DNA from: Sphingomonadales bacterium
GTDB taxonomy: Bacteria > Pseudomonadota > Alphaproteobacteria > SMXS01
Length of the DNA: 40,324 bases
Assembly (NCBI GenBank): GCA_022844405.1
Contig: JALHLV010000035.1
Span: 1-40,324, forward strand
Direction of reading: 5' to 3'
Shown here: one piece after another, positions 12,155-23,468 of the stretch
Numbering within the stretch: the stretch's first letter is position 1
Layout: each line of letters begins with the position of its first letter
The notes under the pieces: generated by a model
Databases searched by the model: none
What the model saw: only the letters and a program-made list of their open reading frames with translations
Told to the model about the DNA's origin: nothing
Position numbers and translations under genes: made by a program

Positions 12155-13549
12155 GTGACCGGATTTGCCTTGAGCCTCAATCAGCTTCCCTTCTACATCC
12201 TGTTGGCCGCGGTCTGTCTGTCGCCGCTTCCATTCGGCGCGGTGCAGATCGGCGCCTGGAGCCTTCTCGCGTTCGTCGTCGGGCTGGTGACCGTGTGCTG
12301 GGCGGCGGCCGCGGCGCTGGGCGCGGGTCCCGATGTCCGTGTGCGCCGCCTGACATGGCCGCTCGTCGCGTTCCTGCTCGCCGTGGCCTGGATCGTGTTC
12401 CAGCTCAGCACGCTCGCACCCGCCTCGTGGCACCATCCGATCTGGGCCATGGCCGGCGAGGCGCTGGGCAAGCCGCTGGCCGGCCGTGTCGCGATCGATC
12501 CCGAAGCCGGCCGGTTCGCGCTGATCCGGCTGCTGAGCTACGCCGCCATATTCTGGCTGGCCGTCCAGTACGGCGCCGACGCGACGCTGGGCGAGCGGGC
12601 GCTGCGCATCCTCACCGTGACGGGCGCGGTCGCGGCGGGCGTCGGCCTGCTGATCTGGGGCGCCGGCCTCTCCCACCTGCTGTGGTTCGACGAGGGCTTC
12701 GTGGCGGTTCAGACGCGCTATGGGTCGCGCCTGGCCATGCCGTTCGTCAACCCCAATCACCTGGCGGCCTTCGCCGGCATGGGACTGATCTGCGCCGTCG
12801 GGCTGCTCGCTGGAGAGACTCGCGGGCTGTGGCGGCCGGAGACTGCCTGGCGCGAGAAGCTGCGGCGGTTCTTCGTCACGGTCATATCGCGACAGTGGCC
12901 CCTGCTGGTTTCCGTCATGGTCTATGCCATGGCCGTCCTGCTCAGCCAGTCGCGTGGCGGCGCGCTGGCATTGCTCTTCGGGCTGCTGGTGCTGGGGGCG
13001 GCGCTGGTCCGGCGCAGGAAGCCGCGGTTCAGCCAGATCATGGCGGCCATCGTGCTGGTGGCCGTCGTGGCCGGCGTGCTGTTCGCGCCAGCCGTCGACC
13101 GGCTCGCCGACCGGATCGGCGCCGTCGAGGCCGAGGCCGGCCAGCGCATGGAGATTTACCGCAATGCCGGCAAGGCGATCGAGGCGTCGCCGCTCCTGGG
13201 CTACGGCTATGGCGGGTTTCCGGCGCTCTACCGGATGTACGACCAGCAGGACATCGCCGGCGTGGTCGACTTCGCCCACAGCACGGTGCTCGAGAACGTC
13301 GTGGAGCTTGGGATACCGGCCGCCGCGCTGCTCTACGGCGCCATCCTGTGGACGGTCATCGCCTGCTGGCGCGGCGCCGGCGACAGGCGACGGGACCAGC
13401 ATATCCCGGCGCTGGCGGCGGCGGTCGCGGCCCTGGCGCTAATACACTCCATGGTTGATTTTCCGCTGCAGATTCCCGCCATCGCGGCAACGTTCTCGCT
13501 GATCCTCGGCGTGGGGTTCGCGCAGTCCGTTAGTTCGAAAAGTTCCTAA
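12155..13549 (+). CDS. O-antigen ligase/polymerase-like membrane protein (Wzy_C family)
   Basis: 464 residues with about ten to twelve hydrophobic spans. Family signatures are FVNPNHLAAF, SQSRGGALAL, and a periplasmic GYGYGGF loop with HSTVLENVVELG. Such proteins join polysaccharide units to lipid A-core or polymerise them. A separate Wzy-like protein lies at 26883, so this one may be a ligase or a second polymerase. The start is uncertain: a GTG at 12155 gives a sensible short N-terminus, with only a weak GAAG upstream, and a TTG a few codons later is possible. It heads the export block on the plus strand. Confidence 0.85.
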   Translation: MTGFALSLNQLPFYILLAAVCLSPLPFGAVQIGAWSLLAFVVGLVTVCWAAAAALGAGPDVRVRRLTWPLVAFLLAVAWIVFQLSTLAPASWHHPIWAMAGEALGKPLAGRVAIDPEAGRFALIRLLSYAAIFWLAVQYGADATLGERALRILTVTGAVAAGVGLLIWGAGLSHLLWFDEGFVAVQTRYGSRLAMPFVNPNHLAAFAGMGLICAVGLLAGETRGLWRPETAWREKLRRFFVTVISRQWPLLVSVMVYAMAVLLSQSRGGALALLFGLLVLGAALVRRRKPRFSQIMAAIVLVAVVAGVLFAPAVDRLADRIGAVEAEAGQRMEIYRNAGKAIEASPLLGYGYGGFPALYRMYDQQDIAGVVDFAHSTVLENVVELGIPAAALLYGAILWTVIACWRGAGDRRRDQHIPALAAAVAALALIHSMVDFPLQIPAIAATFSLILGVGFAQSVSSKSS

Positions 13550-13674: not shown

Positions 13675-14115
13675 ATGGCAACATCCTTTACGAGGCTGAT
13701 CTATGCTATTGGGTTTGGGGCTATATCGACGGTAGGAGCGGCGCACGCTGACGAAAACGCGCTGCCGCCTCCGCTGGCGCAACAACTGAGTGCTCTGATA
13801 CAGGGCTCTGTGGGTGGCAACATCGACCCGGGAATCTTCGCACTTGCAGTGCAAAACCCCGGGTTCTCGGACGAGATCGCCTGCATTTCGGTGCAGTTCT
13901 TCGGTCAACCCGAGACCATCGAGCAGCAGATTCTTCAGGGTATCTCGGATCCCGAGCAACAAGCCGCTGTGAGCACCGCCGTGTCGGCATGCTCCCAGAA
14001 GGATGTTGCCGGTGGGTATGGCGTGGCGATCGCGTCATTCAATCAGGGAATCATCGGCGGTGACGTCAACACGTTGTCCAACACGCAGGACAACGCGTCG
14101 CCCGTGTCGCCGTAG
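13675..14115 (+). CDS. Small secreted protein of unknown function
   Basis: 146 residues. Residues 1-24 form a signal peptide (LIYAIGFGAISTVGAAHA, cleavage after AHA). The mature part is acidic and rich in Q, S and A, with two cysteines (DEIACIS and VSACSQKD) that could form a disulfide, and glycine-rich stretches (SVGGNIDPG, NQGIIGGDVN). I recognise no family. The ATG with TGAGG upstream is preferred over the longer open frame because it puts the signal peptide at the N-terminus. It sits 45 bases before the beta-barrel gene, so it is probably exported to the periplasm and linked to polymer export. Confidence 0.75.
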   Translation: MATSFTRLIYAIGFGAISTVGAAHADENALPPPLAQQLSALIQGSVGGNIDPGIFALAVQNPGFSDEIACISVQFFGQPETIEQQILQGISDPEQQAAVSTAVSACSQKDVAGGYGVAIASFNQGIIGGDVNTLSNTQDNASPVSP

Positions 14116-14160: not shown

Positions 14161-15447
14161 TTGCGTTTGCCTGAAGCAAATATGTTGCGTCGGACACGGA
14201 AGTGTTTGGTGGCGGCCTCGGCATGTGCCGCCGCCGTATCGGCCGGTACCCAGACAGCTTGGGCCCAGCTAGCGAACGGCCAGCACGGGAATACCGTGCT
14301 GACGACCCCCGGTCCCTATGACCCCATCGGCTTCAGGGCGGGACCGATCTTCTTCTTTCCGTCGGTTTCGGTCCAGGGCATCTACAACGACAACATCTAC
14401 GCCGAGGAAACCAATAAGCGCGGGGACGAACTCCTTGTCATCCGCCCGGAACTGCAGGTGCAGACCGATTGGTCGCGGCACGAAGTGCAGCTCTATGCCA
14501 TGGGTGAATTCGGCCTGTACGAGGGCTTTACGGACGAGGACTATCAGGACTACCTCTTCCAGGGCCGGTTCCGCCTCGATGTAAGCCGGGCCACGAACAT
14601 CATCTTCGAGGCCGGCCACGGGCGCGACCACCAGCAGCGCGGCGATCCCGAGGAAGTCGAGGGTCTCGAGCCTACCGAGTTCGACCTCACCGACGCCAAG
14701 GTCCAGGTCAACCAGGCGCTCGGTCGCCTCAAGCTGTCCGGCGGTGGCAGCTTCCGCAAATACGACTTCAACGACGTGGAGGCCGTCGGCGGTGGCTTCA
14801 TCAACAACGACGACCGCGACCGCGACATCTTCGTCGCCAATGCCAAGGCCGCGTTCGAGTTCTCGCCTGGCTACAGTGCCTATGCCGAGTTCTCCTACAA
14901 CTGGCGCGACTTCGACGATCTGGTCGACGACGTCGGCATCAATCGCGATTCCAAGGGCTTCGAGCTCAATGCCGGTCTGACATTCGAGCTGACCAACCTG
15001 ATCCAGGGCTCCATCTATGGCGGCTATATGCAGCAGGATCCGGAAGACCCGGCGCTGCAGAAGATCAAGGGGCCTGCCTTCGGCGCCAGCCTCGACTGGA
15101 ACGTCACGCCGCTGACGACTGTCGGCCTCAAGGGCCAGCGGACGATCGAGGACAGCCAGTTCGCGCTGTCGTCGGGCTACTTCGCCGACCGGGGCCGACT
15201 GACCGTCGACCACAAGATACGCGAGAACATCATCATCAGCGTGTTCGGCGAGATCGGTCAGGACGACTATCGCGGCATCGCCCGGAACGATTTCCGTTAT
15301 GGCGTCGGCGGCTCGCTCGAATGGCGGTTCAACCGGCACTTCGCGGCGAATGTCGCGTACAGCTACCAGGGCCGGGATTCCAACTTCGCCGCCATCGAGG
15401 ACTTCAACAGGAACCTGGTGAGCGTCGGTTTGAAGGCACGTTACTGA
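14161..15447 (+). CDS. Outer-membrane beta-barrel protein of the polysaccharide export block
   Basis: 428 residues. A signal peptide (basic RRTRK, then hydrophobic, then AWA|QLA near residue 35) is followed by alternating amphipathic strands rich in Y, F, D and G. The protein ends in VSVGLKARY, a C-terminal aromatic residue typical of BAM-inserted barrels. It resembles the BBP2-type barrels found in exopolysaccharide loci. The TTG start is chosen because AGGGAG lies five bases upstream; an ATG eight codons later is possible. The short OPX gene follows 63 bases downstream, suggesting that the two make one outer-membrane exit. Confidence 0.85.
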   Translation: MRLPEANMLRRTRKCLVAASACAAAVSAGTQTAWAQLANGQHGNTVLTTPGPYDPIGFRAGPIFFFPSVSVQGIYNDNIYAEETNKRGDELLVIRPELQVQTDWSRHEVQLYAMGEFGLYEGFTDEDYQDYLFQGRFRLDVSRATNIIFEAGHGRDHQQRGDPEEVEGLEPTEFDLTDAKVQVNQALGRLKLSGGGSFRKYDFNDVEAVGGGFINNDDRDRDIFVANAKAAFEFSPGYSAYAEFSYNWRDFDDLVDDVGINRDSKGFELNAGLTFELTNLIQGSIYGGYMQQDPEDPALQKIKGPAFGASLDWNVTPLTTVGLKGQRTIEDSQFALSSGYFADRGRLTVDHKIRENIIISVFGEIGQDDYRGIARNDFRYGVGGSLEWRFNRHFAANVAYSYQGRDSNFAAIEDFNRNLVSVGLKARY

Positions 15448-15510
15448 GGTCGTTTCTGAAGTATCGGGGGGATATGTCCGGGACCCATCTCCTTTGCTTC
15501 GGAGGTCGCA

Positions 15511-16050
15511 ATGCACACATGGGGGCGTGATTTGGTAAGACTGCTCGCAACTGTCATGTTGCTTCTTGTTTCCGTTACGGCCGCTTCGGCCAGCGACCCG
15601 ACCGGCTACAGGCTGGGCGCCGGCGACGAAGTGCGGGTGACGGTATTCAACCACGCCGACCTGTCCGGCCAGTTCACCATCAGCGGCGATGGCGTGATCG
15701 CCCTGCCGCTGGTGGGGGACGTCAAGGCCGGCGGCCTGACACCGCAGGAAGTCGAGGCTCAGATCAAGGATGCGCTGGAGCCCGACTTCCTCAAGAACGC
15801 ATCGGTCAACGTCGACGTTCTCAACTACCGGCCGTTCTACATCCTGGGCGAAGTCAACAAGCCCGGCAGCTATCCGTATGTTTCCGGCATGCGGGTGGTG
15901 AATGCGGTCGCTTTATCGGGCGGCTATACCGTGCGCGCCAGTCAGGGAAAGATATTCATTGAGCGGGGCGGGCAGAAGAAGGTCCCCGCCGATCCGCAGA
16001 CCCAGGTGCTGCCCGGCGACATCGTTCACGTACCCGAACGGTTCTTCTGA
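15511..16050 (+). CDS. Short polysaccharide export protein (OPX/Wza family)
   Basis: 179 residues, about half of E. coli Wza. A signal peptide (about 1-28) lacks a lipobox cysteine. The Poly_export domain covers about 31-105 (YRLGAGDEVRVTVFNHADLSG), and one SLBB domain covers about 107-155 (YILGEVNKPGSYPYVSGM, then LSGGYTVRA). The C-terminal amphipathic helix that forms the Wza pore is absent, as the chain ends in VHVPERFF. This protein therefore probably gates a periplasmic channel and needs a partner barrel. GGAGG precedes the ATG at a good distance. Wzc follows 77 bases later. Confidence 0.92.
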   Translation: MHTWGRDLVRLLATVMLLLVSVTAASASDPTGYRLGAGDEVRVTVFNHADLSGQFTISGDGVIALPLVGDVKAGGLTPQEVEAQIKDALEPDFLKNASVNVDVLNYRPFYILGEVNKPGSYPYVSGMRVVNAVALSGGYTVRASQGKIFIERGGQKKVPADPQTQVLPGDIVHVPERFF

Positions 16051-16127: not shown

Positions 16128-18383
16128 ATGGATCAACGCACGCCGTATTCAGCGGTCAAGGACTGGGGTTACGAGCCCTCGGCAACACCGGCACCCGGCA
16201 AAGGCATCGATTTGTTCGGCTTCGTGGCGTCGGTCTGGCGCCGCAAGACCATCGTGCTTTCGGTGTCGACGATCCTGTTCGTCGCGTTCGTGATCTATCT
16301 GTTCCAGCTCGTGCCACGCTACGAAGCGATGACCACGCTGCGCGTGGGCGGGCCCAAGGCCAACGTGGTCGATATCGAAGCGGTGTTGCAGTCGCCCGGT
16401 CAGAGCCAGAGCCTGGTGGTGACGGAAATCGGTGTCATCAACTCGCGGCAGCTGATGGGCCGCGTGGTCGACAAGCTGAAGCTGCTGGAAGATCCCTTCT
16501 TCAATCCGACGCTGAGACCCGAAGAGGTCGAGAGCGCCTGGCGCTTCATCAACCCGTTCCATTACCTCGGGCTCGCCTGGACCGCCATGTTCGGCGGCGA
16601 CGAACCCGCCGGCAAGGGAATGACCGACGAGGAGAACCAGGCGCAGCTGCGCAGCAATGCGGTCAGCAAGGTTCTCGACATGACCGAGGTGCGCGCCCAA
16701 GGCCTGTCGTCGATCATCGAGATCCGCGTCGAAACACCGGAACGCGGGCTTTCCGCGCGCCTCGCGAACGCCATCGCCGACCAGTATCTGGTGAGCCAGT
16801 TCGAGGCCAAGTTCAGCGCCGCCGAGCGGGCGAGCGCCTGGCTGAACGAACGCCTGGGTAGCCTGCGCACCGAGGTCGAGGCGGCCGAGCGGGCGCTCGA
16901 GCAGTTCCGCGCCAGGTCGGGCCTGATGTCGAGCGGCAACGACAACTCGCTGCTGTCGCAGCAGGCGTCCGAGGTCAACGCCCAGATGATCCTGGCCAAG
17001 ACCGACGCCGCAACCGCCCAAGCACGCCTGTCGCGCATCGAACAGCTCTACAAGACCGGTGGGCTCATCGCGGTGGCCAAGATCCTCGATTCGGACGCGA
17101 TCGCGCGGCTTCGCGCGCAGGAGTCCGAACTGGCGCGCCAGCTGGCGGACCAGTCGCAGGAGTTCGGCGAGCGCCATCCGAAGATGGTGTCGCTGAAGGC
17201 ACAGATCGCCGACACGCAGGAGCAGATCAAGTCGGAAGTCGACAAGATCATGGCCAACCTGCGCAATGATGCCGCGGTGGCGCAGGCCCGCTACGGCACG
17301 TTGGCCGGCAGCCTCTCGTCATTGCAGGGGCAGGCCGGCGCCAACAGCGACGACGCGGCCCAGCTGCGCATGCTCGAGCGCGAGGCCCAGGCCAAGCGGA
17401 CCCTGTTCGACACCTTCCTGAAGCGATTCCAGGAGACTTCGGCGTCCGAGGACCTGCAGACCGCCGACGCCGATATCATCTCCCGCGCCGAAGTGCCGCA
17501 GAAGCCCAGCTTCCCGCCGGTGCAGGAATATCTGATCATCTTCGCCCTGGTCTCGCTGAGCGGCGGCGTGGGCGCGGCGGTGTTCATCGACCGCATCCTC
17601 GACCGCGGCTTCCGCCGGCTCGACCAGATCGAGGAGATGACCGGGCTGCATGCGCTCAGTTCGATTCCGATCGTGAAGGATGGCGATCTGATCCGCACCG
17701 TGCTCGAGAAGCCGAACTCCAGCTTCGCCGAGGCGCTGCGAAACCTGCACACCGGCATCAAGCTGTCCGGCGTCGACGACGACCCCAAGGTGATCCTGAT
17801 GGTGTCGGCGGTTCCCGGCGAGGGCAAGACGGCGGTGTCCACCAGCATGGCCGCCATGCTGGCGAAATCGGGCCACCGGGTATTGCTGATCGACAGCGAC
17901 CTGCGGCGCGGCCGGACGCATGAGCGGCTGGGGCTCCTGCCCGAGCCCGGGCTGGTGACCCTGCTGCTCGAACACCGGTCGATCGCCGAGGTGGCGCAGC
18001 GGCATGTGCCGAGCGGCGTCGACGTCATCGTCGGCGGCGGCTCGGTGCGCAGCCCGCAGGATTTGCTGGGGTCCAAGTCCATGCTCGACTTCCTCGCCCA
18101 TGCGCGGACGCTCTACGACTACGTGATCATCGATACGCCGCCATCGAGCATCGTCAGCGAGGCGCGCCTGCTGGCGGCCGCGGGCGACCGGGTGGTGATG
18201 ATCACCCATTGGAACCGCACGCCGCGCAGCATCGTCATCGCCGCGATCCGGCAGCTCACCGAAGCCGGCGCGAAGTTCGCCGGGGTCGTGCTGTCCCAGG
18301 TCGGGTCGCGTGGCGCGCTGATCTACGGCTACGACAGCTACAGCCCCTATTACGGCAAATATGGTGAGTACTATCAGGACTGA
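16128..18383 (+). CDS. Polysaccharide co-polymerase with BY-type tyrosine kinase domain (Wzc-like)
   Basis: 751 residues. A first membrane span is at about 38-60, then a Wzz domain and a long coiled-coil periplasmic region (about 215-410). A second span at about 465-490 leads into a cytoplasmic P-loop kinase. Walker A is G564-EGKT568, Walker A' is LLID589SD591, and Walker B is VIID669TPP. The last 19 residues contain eight tyrosines, the autophosphorylation cluster of BY-kinases. It controls chain length and export in Wzx/Wzy systems. The next gene starts inside its last codons. No Wzb-type phosphatase is seen in the window. Confidence 0.93.
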   Translation: MDQRTPYSAVKDWGYEPSATPAPGKGIDLFGFVASVWRRKTIVLSVSTILFVAFVIYLFQLVPRYEAMTTLRVGGPKANVVDIEAVLQSPGQSQSLVVTEIGVINSRQLMGRVVDKLKLLEDPFFNPTLRPEEVESAWRFINPFHYLGLAWTAMFGGDEPAGKGMTDEENQAQLRSNAVSKVLDMTEVRAQGLSSIIEIRVETPERGLSARLANAIADQYLVSQFEAKFSAAERASAWLNERLGSLRTEVEAAERALEQFRARSGLMSSGNDNSLLSQQASEVNAQMILAKTDAATAQARLSRIEQLYKTGGLIAVAKILDSDAIARLRAQESELARQLADQSQEFGERHPKMVSLKAQIADTQEQIKSEVDKIMANLRNDAAVAQARYGTLAGSLSSLQGQAGANSDDAAQLRMLEREAQAKRTLFDTFLKRFQETSASEDLQTADADIISRAEVPQKPSFPPVQEYLIIFALVSLSGGVGAAVFIDRILDRGFRRLDQIEEMTGLHALSSIPIVKDGDLIRTVLEKPNSSFAEALRNLHTGIKLSGVDDDPKVILMVSAVPGEGKTAVSTSMAAMLAKSGHRVLLIDSDLRRGRTHERLGLLPEPGLVTLLLEHRSIAEVAQRHVPSGVDVIVGGGSVRSPQDLLGSKSMLDFLAHARTLYDYVIIDTPPSSIVSEARLLAAAGDRVVMITHWNRTPRSIVIAAIRQLTEAGAKFAGVVLSQVGSRGALIYGYDSYSPYYGKYGEYYQD

Positions 18384-19125: not shown

Positions 19126-19644
19126 ATGCCTGCAACTGACGGAAGAGAATGGTTCGTGGCCCAGACCCAGCCGCGCAAGGAGGCGCTCGCCCTGCAGAAC
19201 CTCCGGAACCAGGGGTTCGATGCCTATTGCCCCCGGGTCAGGCGCACCCGCCGGCATGCGCGGAAATTCGAAACCGTCAGCGAGCCGCTGTTCCCCGGCT
19301 ATGTGTTCGTCGGCATCGATGTCGCGCAACAGCCCTGGCGCAGCGTCAACGGCACCTTCGGCGTTTCCCGCATCCTGACCGACGGCGCCGGTCCGGTGGC
19401 GCTGCAGGAGGGCCTCGTCGAGCAACTGATGGCGGCGACCGGCGCGGATGGCGGCGTGCCCGGGCGCGCGGCGCGGGTCGGCCAGGACGTGCGGCTCCGG
19501 ACCGGCCCCTTCGCCGATTTCGTCGGCTGCATCGTCGGCCTGTCGGCCGGCGGCAGGGTCCGGATTCTGCTGCGGCTGATGAATCGCGAGATCACCATCG
19601 GCGCCAGCCTGTCCGAACTGGACCTGCTGGGCCAGACCGCCTGA
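19126..19644 (+). CDS. Specialised NusG paralog (RfaH/LoaP-like antiterminator)
   Basis: 172 residues. The NGN domain covers about 7-100: REWFVAQTQPRKE opening strand, FDAYCPRVRR, and LFPGYVFV at 55-62, a strong NusG/RfaH signature. The KOW domain covers about 118-167 (GQDVRLRTGPFADFVGCI, then RVRILLRLMNREI). It is in a sugar locus and not next to secE/rplK as housekeeping nusG is, so it is read as a NusG specialised paralog that makes RNA polymerase ignore termination in long operons. An ops-like element lies 125 bases past its stop, in front of the 17-kb downstream operon. The start at ATG 19126 is 64 bases after the previous gene. Confidence 0.92.
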   Translation: MPATDGREWFVAQTQPRKEALALQNLRNQGFDAYCPRVRRTRRHARKFETVSEPLFPGYVFVGIDVAQQPWRSVNGTFGVSRILTDGAGPVALQEGLVEQLMAATGADGGVPGRAARVGQDVRLRTGPFADFVGCIVGLSAGGRVRILLRLMNREITIGASLSELDLLGQTA

Positions 19645-19871: not shown

Positions 19872-20990
19872 ATGGGGCACATGGCCAAGACAGCACTGAT
19901 CACCGGCGTCACCGGACAGGACGGCGCCTATCTCACCGAACTCCTGCTCGACAAGGGCTATGAGGTTCACGGCGTCAAGCGCCGCTCCTCGTCGTTCAAT
20001 ACCGGCAGGATCGACCATCTGTATGAGGATCCCCATATCGAGGATGCCCGGCTGCACCTGCATTACGGCGACATGACCGATGCGACCAACCTGATCCGCA
20101 TCGTGCAGGAGACGCGGCCCGACGAGATCTACAACCTGGCCGCCCAGAGCCATGTGCAGGTGAGCTTCGAAACCCCCGAGTATACGGCCAACGCCGACGC
20201 CATGGGCACGCTTCGCCTGCTGGAGGCGATCCGGCTGCTCGGCATGTCGCAGAGCACGCGGTTCTACCAGGCATCCACGTCCGAGCTCTACGGCAAGGTG
20301 CGGGAAATCCCCCAGTCCGAGACGACGCCGTTCTATCCGCGCTCGCCCTATGCGGCGGCCAAGCTCTACGCCTACTGGATCACGGTGAACTACCGCGAGG
20401 CCTACGGCATCCACGCCTCCAACGGCATCCTGTTCAACCATGAAAGCCCGATCCGCGGCGAAACCTTCGTCACCCGCAAGATCACCCGGGCGGTGGCGGC
20501 GATCCATCATGGGCTGCAGGAGCGCCTCTATCTCGGCAATCTGGACGCCAAGCGCGACTGGGGCCACGCCAGGGACTATGTCGAGGGCATGTGGCGCATC
20601 GTGCAGCACGGCACGCCCGACGACTTCGTCCTCGCCACCGGCGAGACCCGCAGCGTCCGCGAGTTCGTCGAACGGGCGTTCGCCGAGGTCGGCACCGATG
20701 TGGTGTGGCACGGCGAGGGCGTGGACGAGATCGGGCACGACCGAAAATCTGGCCGCCTTCTGGTCGAGATCGATCCGAAATATTTCCGGCCCACGGAAGT
20801 CGATATCCTCATCGGCGACCCCTCGAAGGCCAAGCGCGAACTGGGCTGGGAAGCGACCACCCCGTTCGACGCCCTGGTGCGCGAGATGGTGGCCGAGGAC
20901 GTGAAGAACGTCGCCCTCGAAGCCGGCAACCGACGGCTCGACGAGGACCGTGGGCCCGGCCTCGTGGCTGCGGGCGGCGTGCGGCGCTAG
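19872..20990 (+). CDS. gmd: GDP-mannose 4,6-dehydratase
   Basis: 372 residues. Rossmann fold G12-VT-G15-QD-G18, catalytic S/T-S-E in ASTSELYGK (S137, E138), and Y160-xxx-K164. [16 protein letters not shown] and [10 protein letters not shown] are Gmd signatures. It makes GDP-4-keto-6-deoxymannose, which the GDP-fucose synthase at 36222 can convert to GDP-L-fucose. The chain carries a polar extension after about residue 350. Two in-frame ATGs (19872, 19881) are possible; the first is listed. It is the first gene after the ops-like leader and so heads the long operon. Confidence 0.93.
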
Positions 20991-21860: not shown

Positions 21861-23468
21861 TTGGAGAATCCGTTCAGCCGGGCCATGCCGGTCCGCTCGC
21901 CGAGCCAGCGGGTGGAGGCGCGGCGTCAGGCGCGAACGCTACGCAACGACCGGGCGCTGGGCGCCGAGGTCGGCCTGGACGAACTGGGCGGACATGTGGC
22001 GCGCGGCAGCATGGTCGCGCTTGCCTCGTATGGTGTCTTCGTTGCGATCCAGGTTGCGCAGCTCGTCATCCTCTCGCGGCTGCTCACCCCAGACGATTTC
22101 GGCGTCGTTGGGATGGCGCTTGCCGTGACCGGGTTCATCCGCCTGTTTCAGGACATGGGCCTGACCAGCGCGACGATCCAGCGTCGCGACATCGACCAGG
22201 ATCTGGTCAGCTCGCTGTTCTTCATCAACCTGGCGGTCGGGGTGGCGCTGATGCTGGCCTGCTGGGCGGCGGCGCCGTTCGCTGGCATGGTATTCGACGA
22301 CCAGCGTGTGGTGGCGGTGATCGTTCTGCTGGCGCTGACCATGCCGATGCTGGCGCTACGGGCGCAACACCGCGCGCTTGTCAGCCGGCGTATGGAGTTC
22401 GTCAAGCTCAACCTTGCCTTGGTCGTCTCCAATCTTGCCGGTTTGCTCGTCGCGTGCCTCCTCGCATGGTTTACCGACTGGGGCTACTGGGCGGTGGTGG
22501 CGGGACAGCTCGCGGCCGGGTTTGTCGACATGGTTTTCTTTTGGGTCGCGTCGGCGTGGCGGCCTCAATGGCCCAGAGCGTACGACGGCCTTCGCTCGGC
22601 CTTCTCCTTCGGCGTCAACATCATGGGCGCCAACATTCTCGGCTGGGTCTGGAAGCAGTCGGATAACGCGCTGATCGGCTGGCGCTGGGGCACGGTCGAA
22701 CTCGGCTACTATGCGCGTGCCTATTCGATCCTGCTGATGCCGCTGGCCATCATCAGCGGGCCGGTTGCCTCGTCGGTCATTCCGGCGCTCAGCCGCCTGC
22801 AGGACGAGCGCGACAAGTGGGCGCGCCTGTTCACCCGTACCGCGCGGATCCTCTCTGCGTTCAGCGCGCTGATGGCGCTGTTGCTGATCCTCAACGCCAA
22901 ATTCCTGGTGGACCTCGTGCTCGGGCCGGGCTGGGACGCGAGCGCGCGCATCTTCTCGATATTGGCGCTATCGGTCGTGCCGAGCGTTGCCTGGGAGTTG
23001 TCGCGGTTCGTGTTCCTGTCGCTCGGCCGTTCGGATGTCATGTTGAAATACAGCCTGATCGCGGGTCCGCTGCACCTCGCCGCGTTCTGCCTGGGTCTCG
23101 CGTCGGGCGGAGTTGGCGTCGCCTGGGGACTGACCGTCGTCTCCTGGGGACTGGCGGTTCCGATCCTGGTCGTGTCCGCGCGCACCGCCGGGATCGGCGC
23201 CGGCCGGCTGCTCGGCGACCTAGCGCCGGTCCTCGCCGCCTTCGCGGCGGCCTATGCGCTGGGCATCTCGCTGGTCGCCGGATTGACCAGTGGCAGGCCG
23301 CTGCTCGACGCGCTGGCCTTGTCCGCCCTGGCCATAGCCGCCTTTGTCGCGGTGCTGGCGCTGGCCGGCTCGCTCCGGGAGAGCTGGCGCGCCGACATGG
23401 CCCTTGCTGCGCGCCGGATTGCCAGGTGGGTTGCGCGCAGCGACCGCGACACGGCCGTCGGCTTATGA
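21861..23468 (+). CDS. wzx: Oligosaccharide flippase (Wzx, MOP superfamily)
   Basis: 535 residues with 12 to 14 hydrophobic spans. Signatures of the WzxC-type flippases are SRLLTPDDFGVVGMA, FQDMGLTSATIQR and YYARAYSILLMPLAIISGP. It should move undecaprenyl-linked repeat units across the inner membrane. The start is a TTG at 21861 with GGAG upstream; the first 50 residues are charged and cytosolic, and an ATG at residue 9 (21885) is possible. It follows the methyltransferase by 16 bases. Confidence 0.9.
   Translation: MENPFSRAMPVRSPSQRVEARRQARTLRNDRALGAEVGLDELGGHVARGSMVALASYGVFVAIQVAQLVILSRLLTPDDFGVVGMALAVTGFIRLFQDMGLTSATIQRRDIDQDLVSSLFFINLAVGVALMLACWAAAPFAGMVFDDQRVVAVIVLLALTMPMLALRAQHRALVSRRMEFVKLNLALVVSNLAGLLVACLLAWFTDWGYWAVVAGQLAAGFVDMVFFWVASAWRPQWPRAYDGLRSAFSFGVNIMGANILGWVWKQSDNALIGWRWGTVELGYYARAYSILLMPLAIISGPVASSVIPALSRLQDERDKWARLFTRTARILSAFSALMALLLILNAKFLVDLVLGPGWDASARIFSILALSVVPSVAWELSRFVFLSLGRSDVMLKYSLIAGPLHLAAFCLGLASGGVGVAWGLTVVSWGLAVPILVVSARTAGIGAGRLLGDLAPVLAAFAAAYALGISLVAGLTSGRPLLDALALSALAIAAFVAVLALAGSLRESWRADMALAARRIARWVARSDRDTAVGL

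Follow-up and report, generated by a model that had tools for sequence, protein, structure and literature searches.

A beta-barrel and a short, non-lipidated OPX protein as the probable outer-membrane translocon of a Wzx/Wzy-type polysaccharide pathway in a Sphingomonadales bacterium

Introduction

The locus described here raises the question of what forms the outer-membrane pore of a polysaccharide exporter whose OPX protein is short and apparently devoid of both lipid anchor and membrane-spanning helix. A first-pass annotation, made from the sequence alone, proposed that this role falls to the beta-barrel encoded directly before the OPX gene. The composite translocon of a D1D2-OPX protein and a barrel was published in 2022 (PMC9601211, PMC9603273), and its precedents also include WzpX/S/B (PMC9603273). 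We have analysed the window, which is the whole of contig C35 (40,324 bases) of a 3.78 Mb genome in 41 contigs, together with related loci in other genomes.

The polysaccharide cluster of the window

The barrel and OPX genes lie in a Wzx/Wzy-type cluster (Table 1), with Wzy_C, Polysacc_synt_3, Wzz/AAA_31 and glycosyltransferases present in the window. Further genes 3' of the OPX gene have Pfam or NCBIfam matches to glycosyltransferases, acyl- and hexapeptide transferases and sugar epimerases. The co-polymerase has hydrophobic segments at residues ~41-59 and ~469-487, with ~410 residues in between, and carries 8 tyrosines within its last 25 residues. Its gene is followed by a weakly VpsP-like one, a succession that resembles the vps gene order. 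The product of the latter scores 13.2 bits with the VpsP model NF038257, whose cut-off is 125, leaving it outside that family; the model is matched by 3/3 scanned homologues of this protein, with a best E of 0.012.

The NusG paralogue is a probable operon antiterminator by its sequence similarity to RfaH (TIGR01955, E 9.6e-29, under the cut-off of that model). Paralogues of the same RfaH/UpxY/LoaP-like kind also occur in loci L062, L063 and L066. Promoters and terminators predicted in the window are at chance level (1 found vs 1.1 expected; 3 vs 3.4). The window contig has no Bac_transf initiating transferase; the genome's one match to PF02397 lies on contig C8 (C8:41244-41795), which also carries the second barrel-OPX pair of this genome. 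The window cluster may share the C8 transferase or use one of another type.

Table 1. Main features of the export locus and its surroundings (positions in the window).
Feature	Position	Strand	Evidence
Wzy-like polymerase (Wzy_C / O-antigen ligase family)	12155..13549	+	PF04932 E 3.1e-22
Small secreted protein, 146 aa, two cysteines, candidate accessory subunit	13675..14115	+	conserved 5' of window-type barrels
BBP2_2 outer-membrane beta-barrel, 421 aa, proposed outer-membrane pore	14182..15447 (TTG 14161 possible)	+	PF10082; AF2
Short OPX protein, 179 aa, Poly_export (D1) + one SLBB (D2)	15511..16050	+	Pfam; model
Polysaccharide co-polymerase with BY-kinase domain (Wzz + AAA_31)	16128..18383	+	
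Weakly VpsP-like protein, 233 aa	18361..19062	+	NF038257 E 0.051
NusG paralogue, RfaH/UpxY/LoaP type	19126..19644	+	PF02357 E 4.6e-19
GDP-mannose 4,6-dehydratase	19872..20990	+	TIGR01472 603.8 bits, cut-off 415
Wzx-like flippase	21861..23468	+	PF13440 E 2e-72

The short OPX protein

The OPX gene follows the barrel gene on the same strand after 63 bp. Its product had been described as consisting of Poly_export and one SLBB domain only, with neither a lipobox cysteine nor a C-terminal helix, and each part of this description is borne out. Pfam finds Poly_export at residues 29-103 (E 9.7e-25) followed by SLBB at 109-155 (E 6.9e-14), or alternatively SLBB_2 at 109-174, and no other domain. There is no cysteine anywhere in the protein, and its model, in which the OPX domains reach a pLDDT of ~88-96, has no C-terminal helix. 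The trait of Wza-type (Class 1) proteins, a C-terminal membrane-spanning helix (Wza_C), is absent by both Pfam and the model. The closest relative by sequence in the PDB is 9n9a, aligned over residues 24-179 (E 1.6e-22), and Wza chains come next (e.g. 2j58, E 3.1e-7).

The predicted lack of a lipid anchor is a trait of the window group, since a lipobox pattern is found in none of its six OPX proteins with a readable N-terminus (that of L013 is not readable). The same search gives one match among seven proteins of the C8 group (L011, inside the hydrophobic core) and seven among the eight of the Parvibaculum-type group. PMC9603273 puts predicted lipoproteins at almost 50% of Class 3 OPX proteins at large, and those with Sec/SPI signals at about 30%.

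In short helix-less OPX proteins the very last two residues are a hydrophobic one and Phe (ERFF, ERYF, ESFF, ERLF), and five short OPX proteins with a hydrophobic tail have other endings. When sorted by hand, the hydrophobic-Phe end is present in 32/32 OPX proteins of barrel loci and in 21/22 short OPX proteins without a BBP2_2 partner. An aromatic-Phe end as a signature for docking to the barrel was rejected as unspecific on account of these 21 partnerless proteins.

The BBP2_2 barrel

The gene directly 5' of the OPX gene codes, as previously annotated, for a beta-barrel with a signal peptide and a C-terminal aromatic residue. The reading frame 14161-15447 aligns with positions 2-378 of the 378-position PF10082 (BBP2_2) profile at E 2.2e-107; a Sec-type signal, assigned by eye, ends in TAWA before a Gln, and the last residue is Tyr. 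The start at TTG 14161 given by the first-pass annotation is probably a minor error. Translation probably begins at ATG 14182, because both closest homologues (L007 and L009) have their first Met there with no in-frame ATG, GTG or TTG 5' of it. TTG 14161 is kept as the alternative since AGGGAG is found 5 bases 5' of that codon, and the mature protein is identical either way.

The AF2 model of the barrel, built on 35 sequences, has a mean pLDDT of 88.5 and a pTM of 0.81. It displays 18 long strands, the first at residues 56-69 and the last at 408-420, and residues 1-36 are disordered. Structural comparison gives AlgE (5iyu) as top match with Z 19.7, rmsd 4.8 and 316 aligned residues, tied with OprD-family porins that score Z 19.2-19.3, within 1 Z unit. 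In the E-value order of Foldseek, TonB-type receptors and porins outrank AlgE, whose first entry is at rank 14. A search of PDB sequences with the barrel profile reveals no natural homologue at E 0.001, the best match being chain TMB12sol9_3 (E 0.0052). The lumen would hold 19 basic and 20 acidic residues when counted from strand alternation rather than coordinates, a count too rough for the type of polymer to be predicted from it.

Wzi is likewise an 18-stranded barrel of Wzx/Wzy capsule clusters (PMC9601211, PMC9603273), and the window barrel might by this likeness be a surface lectin of that kind, or an accessory that anchors or organises a polymer leaving the cell elsewhere. We consider this improbable. 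The barrel model has neither an N-terminal helical bundle nor a Wzi-like helical plug, its sole helix-like turn being at ~117-119; the OPX protein has no helix with which to build a pore of its own; and deletion of the barrel gene prmC makes Sphingomonas LM7 EPS-negative (PMC11340318). Wzi is not among the best 50 structural matches listed for the barrel, which has no bearing on the matter.

Linkage and shared history of barrel and OPX

The genome has only two BBP2_2 barrels, on contigs C35 and C8, and each is encoded directly 5' of a short OPX protein. A third OPX (L003, on contig C3) is a 688-aa frame in which Poly_export is accompanied by four SLBB stretches; contig C3 has no BBP2_2 barrel.

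The co-occurrence that the first-pass annotation offered as a check is found in 41 related genomes, where 20 of 21 strong BBP2_2 barrels (E 6e-60 or better) lie within 3 kb of an OPX gene, all 20 on the same strand, with the OPX gene downstream in 18 cases and upstream in 2. The remaining strong barrel, in genome G018, has no OPX within 3 kb. Weak matches (E >1e-9), which make up 13 of the 34 listed, were left out of this count. Strong barrels accompany 20/33 OPX frames of 300 aa or less and 0/11 longer ones (Fisher p 3.5e-4, relatedness ignored). The association stands above chance because the matches far exceed curated cut-offs and the pairing recurs at 20/21 barrels.

A wider scan of a genome collection found 41 loci with a related barrel. 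An OPX, detected with its own profile, is present in 19 of them, on the same strand in 17 and on the opposite strand in 2. The 22 loci where no OPX was found comprise 11 of a three-barrel type, 2 cut at a contig end and 9 others; as a sequence match, BBP2_2 alone is therefore no proof of a role in export.

The barrel tree, computed for 61 barrels (56 different, L102 left out), places the window barrel in a 19-row clade (14 distinct sequences; SH-aLRT 92) whose members are all encoded directly 5' of an OPX protein. The OPX tree covers 27 of the 32 distinct same-strand pairs (L082 and L098-L101 left out) and shows the same three groups as the barrels. Barrel and OPX distances correlate with a Spearman r of 0.73, and 0/2000 permutations are as high. 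In the four genomes with both barrel types (G000, G002, G005 and G006), each OPX groups with the clade of its own barrel (4/4). By these phylogenies the barrel and OPX genes are jointly inherited; linkage alone could give congruent trees.

These data also bear on the reading in which the barrel is an ordinary porin encoded here by chance, with the OPX protein served by an unlinked barrel or export left to a helix-bearing OPX. BBP2_2 barrels do occur outside OPX loci and the fold of the window barrel is also close to OprD-family porins. Such a coincidence is nonetheless very improbable in view of the barrel-OPX linkage and the congruent trees, of the position of both BBP2_2 barrels of the genome next to a short OPX, and of the third OPX, whose 688-aa frame is on a different contig. 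That the OPX protein crosses the outer membrane by itself, as its octameric Wza relatives do via their C-terminal helix, is hardly conceivable for a protein with no such helix, hydrophobic tail or lipid anchor.

A composite export route

We hold it very likely that the barrel and the OPX protein together make up a translocon of the composite OPX/beta-barrel kind, the match originally put forward for this locus, and serve as the outer-membrane end of an exporter in a Wzx/Wzy-dependent polysaccharide pathway. Each sequence-level trait of this route that could be examined is present at the locus. The reading draws support from the domains, the barrel fold and strand count, the absence of a helix and a lipobox, the surrounding operon, the linkage and shared history seen in the congruent trees, and the published precedents. 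The 18-stranded BBP2_2 barrel would be the outer-membrane pore through which the sugar polymer leaves. The OPX protein, without lipid anchor or membrane helix, would assemble under it in the periplasm into a ring built from its D1 and D2 domains, connecting the barrel to the co-polymerase encoded next. We infer ring formation, the contact of ring and barrel and the passage of polymer through the barrel from the Myxococcus and Sphingomonas systems.

EpsX/EpsY (WzpX/WzaX) of Myxococcus xanthus shares with the window pair a helix-less D1D2 OPX protein, an adjacent 18-stranded barrel of AlgE-like fold, a co-polymerase and a Wzx/Wzy-type pathway (PMC9601211, PMC9603273). A difference lies in the lipid anchor: myxobacterial D1D2 OPX proteins are nearly all lipoproteins, those of the EpsY type in all but one case (PMC9601211), whereas the window OPX has no cysteine. 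The window also has a small secreted protein encoded directly 5' of the barrel, of which there is none in the parts of the Myxococcus accounts drawn on here (PMC9601211, PMC9603273). The promonan cluster of Sphingomonas sp. LM7, likened by description, has the barrel gene prmC directly 5' of prmD, which encodes an SLBB OPX protein, co-polymerase and kinase genes 3' of the latter, and a small hypothetical gene, prmB, directly 5' of the barrel gene; prmB presumably is a 64-aa ORF, shorter than the 146-aa protein of the window (PMC11340318). Deletion of prmC or prmD abolishes EPS in that strain, and deletion of prmB has no effect (PMC11340318). VpsM/VpsN of Vibrio cholerae, a named couple of barrel and short OPX (PMC9601211), is likewise compared by description, the VpsP match in the window being weak. 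PelB/PelC of Pseudomonas aeruginosa shares the arrangement of a barrel on a periplasmic protein ring, but that ring is made of 12 PelC lipoproteins and not of OPX (PMC12141448).

The complex was modelled with AF2 as a single chain of barrel, linker and OPX, in which the TGA stop of the barrel gene and a second, intergenic TGA were read as Ser to join both proteins. Since ~37 barrel C-terminal residues fell on the OPX in the joint alignment, only the final 152 residues of each OPX row were kept and the number of barrels was reduced; by an equivalent local alignment, each row still seems to have ~8 residues of the barrel C-terminus out of place. The resulting pTM of 0.63, obtained with one OPX copy instead of the proposed eight and with mostly unpaired rows, gives no confident relative placement of OPX and barrel. 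As a version of the refuting test given in the first-pass annotation, a predicted complex that lacks an interface, this model is a weak one.

The composite translocon being already published, the window pair is a new member of it and gives this recently recognised route a well-documented case from the Alphaproteobacteria. Lacking both a lipid anchor and a membrane helix, the OPX protein should rely entirely on its barrel, which makes it a clean test case for what keeps ring and barrel together.

A co-inherited small secreted protein

The 146-aa protein encoded 5' of the barrel gene has a signal-like start (by eye) and cysteines at positions 70 and 106. Both cysteines, as well as a C-terminal pattern, are invariant in 6/6 distinct homologues. 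It is encoded directly 5' of all six distinct window-type barrels, at a distance of 24-67 bp in the other five loci. A profile search of 60 relatives gives 6 matches in 5 genomes, each match adjoining a window-type barrel. A further search of 240 genomes of the class yields 4 matches in 3 genomes, the same ones as among the relatives, and neither set contains the protein away from window-type barrels. No homologue is found within 1.3-1.4 kb upstream of the C8-type barrels that the same genomes also encode, or of the sister barrel L013. The protein belongs to no Pfam or NCBIfam family; when ten homologues and counterparts were compared with Pfam at E 0.1, eight had no match and two had matches below the cut-offs.

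Parvibaculum-type loci encode a secreted-looking protein of different, unalignable sequence between OPX and barrel in 8/8 cases (L006, L017, L065, L066, L070-L073), with the genes arranged as OPX - small protein - barrel. That these proteins are homologous to the window-type ones is unproven (hhalign probability 0.9%, from low-diversity alignments). Comparable small ORFs are present 5' of the barrel in L016, L097, L101, L082, L075 and L076, and none is seen there in L008, L014, L064, L068, L069, L098 and L099.

This co-inheritance raises the question of a third translocon subunit. It is possible, but rather unlikely, that the 146-aa protein is such an undescribed subunit of this lineage, acting as adaptor or gate between OPX ring and barrel, or else a small cargo exported through the barrel. 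As an adaptor, it would take over the role played elsewhere by the lipid anchor, and the Parvibaculum-type small secreted proteins would be its functional counterparts. The lack of detectable homology between the two kinds of protein argues against a third subunit, as do the C8-type pairs, which manage without the 146-aa protein, and prmB of Sphingomonas LM7, a gene at the same position whose deletion has no effect (PMC11340318). It is nevertheless a lead worth following.

Additional observations on related barrels

L069, whose record bears the title Candidatus Kuenenia stuttgartiensis MAG, and L015, from a genome in the genus to which the window belongs, have identical barrels; the title or the binning of the L069 record looks wrong. 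In Thiobacillus and relatives, eleven loci (L078, L080, L081, L084, L085, L086, L088, L089, L090, L093 and L094) group as a single clade (SH-aLRT 99), and the stretches covered contain no OPX. Each has a single frame of ~900 aa in which the BBP2_2 barrel is followed by repeated domains of an 8-stranded type (OMP_b-brl/OmpA, matched by Pfam in L078, L084 and L094, i.e. 3/11), the layout of a tandem multi-barrel outer-membrane protein.
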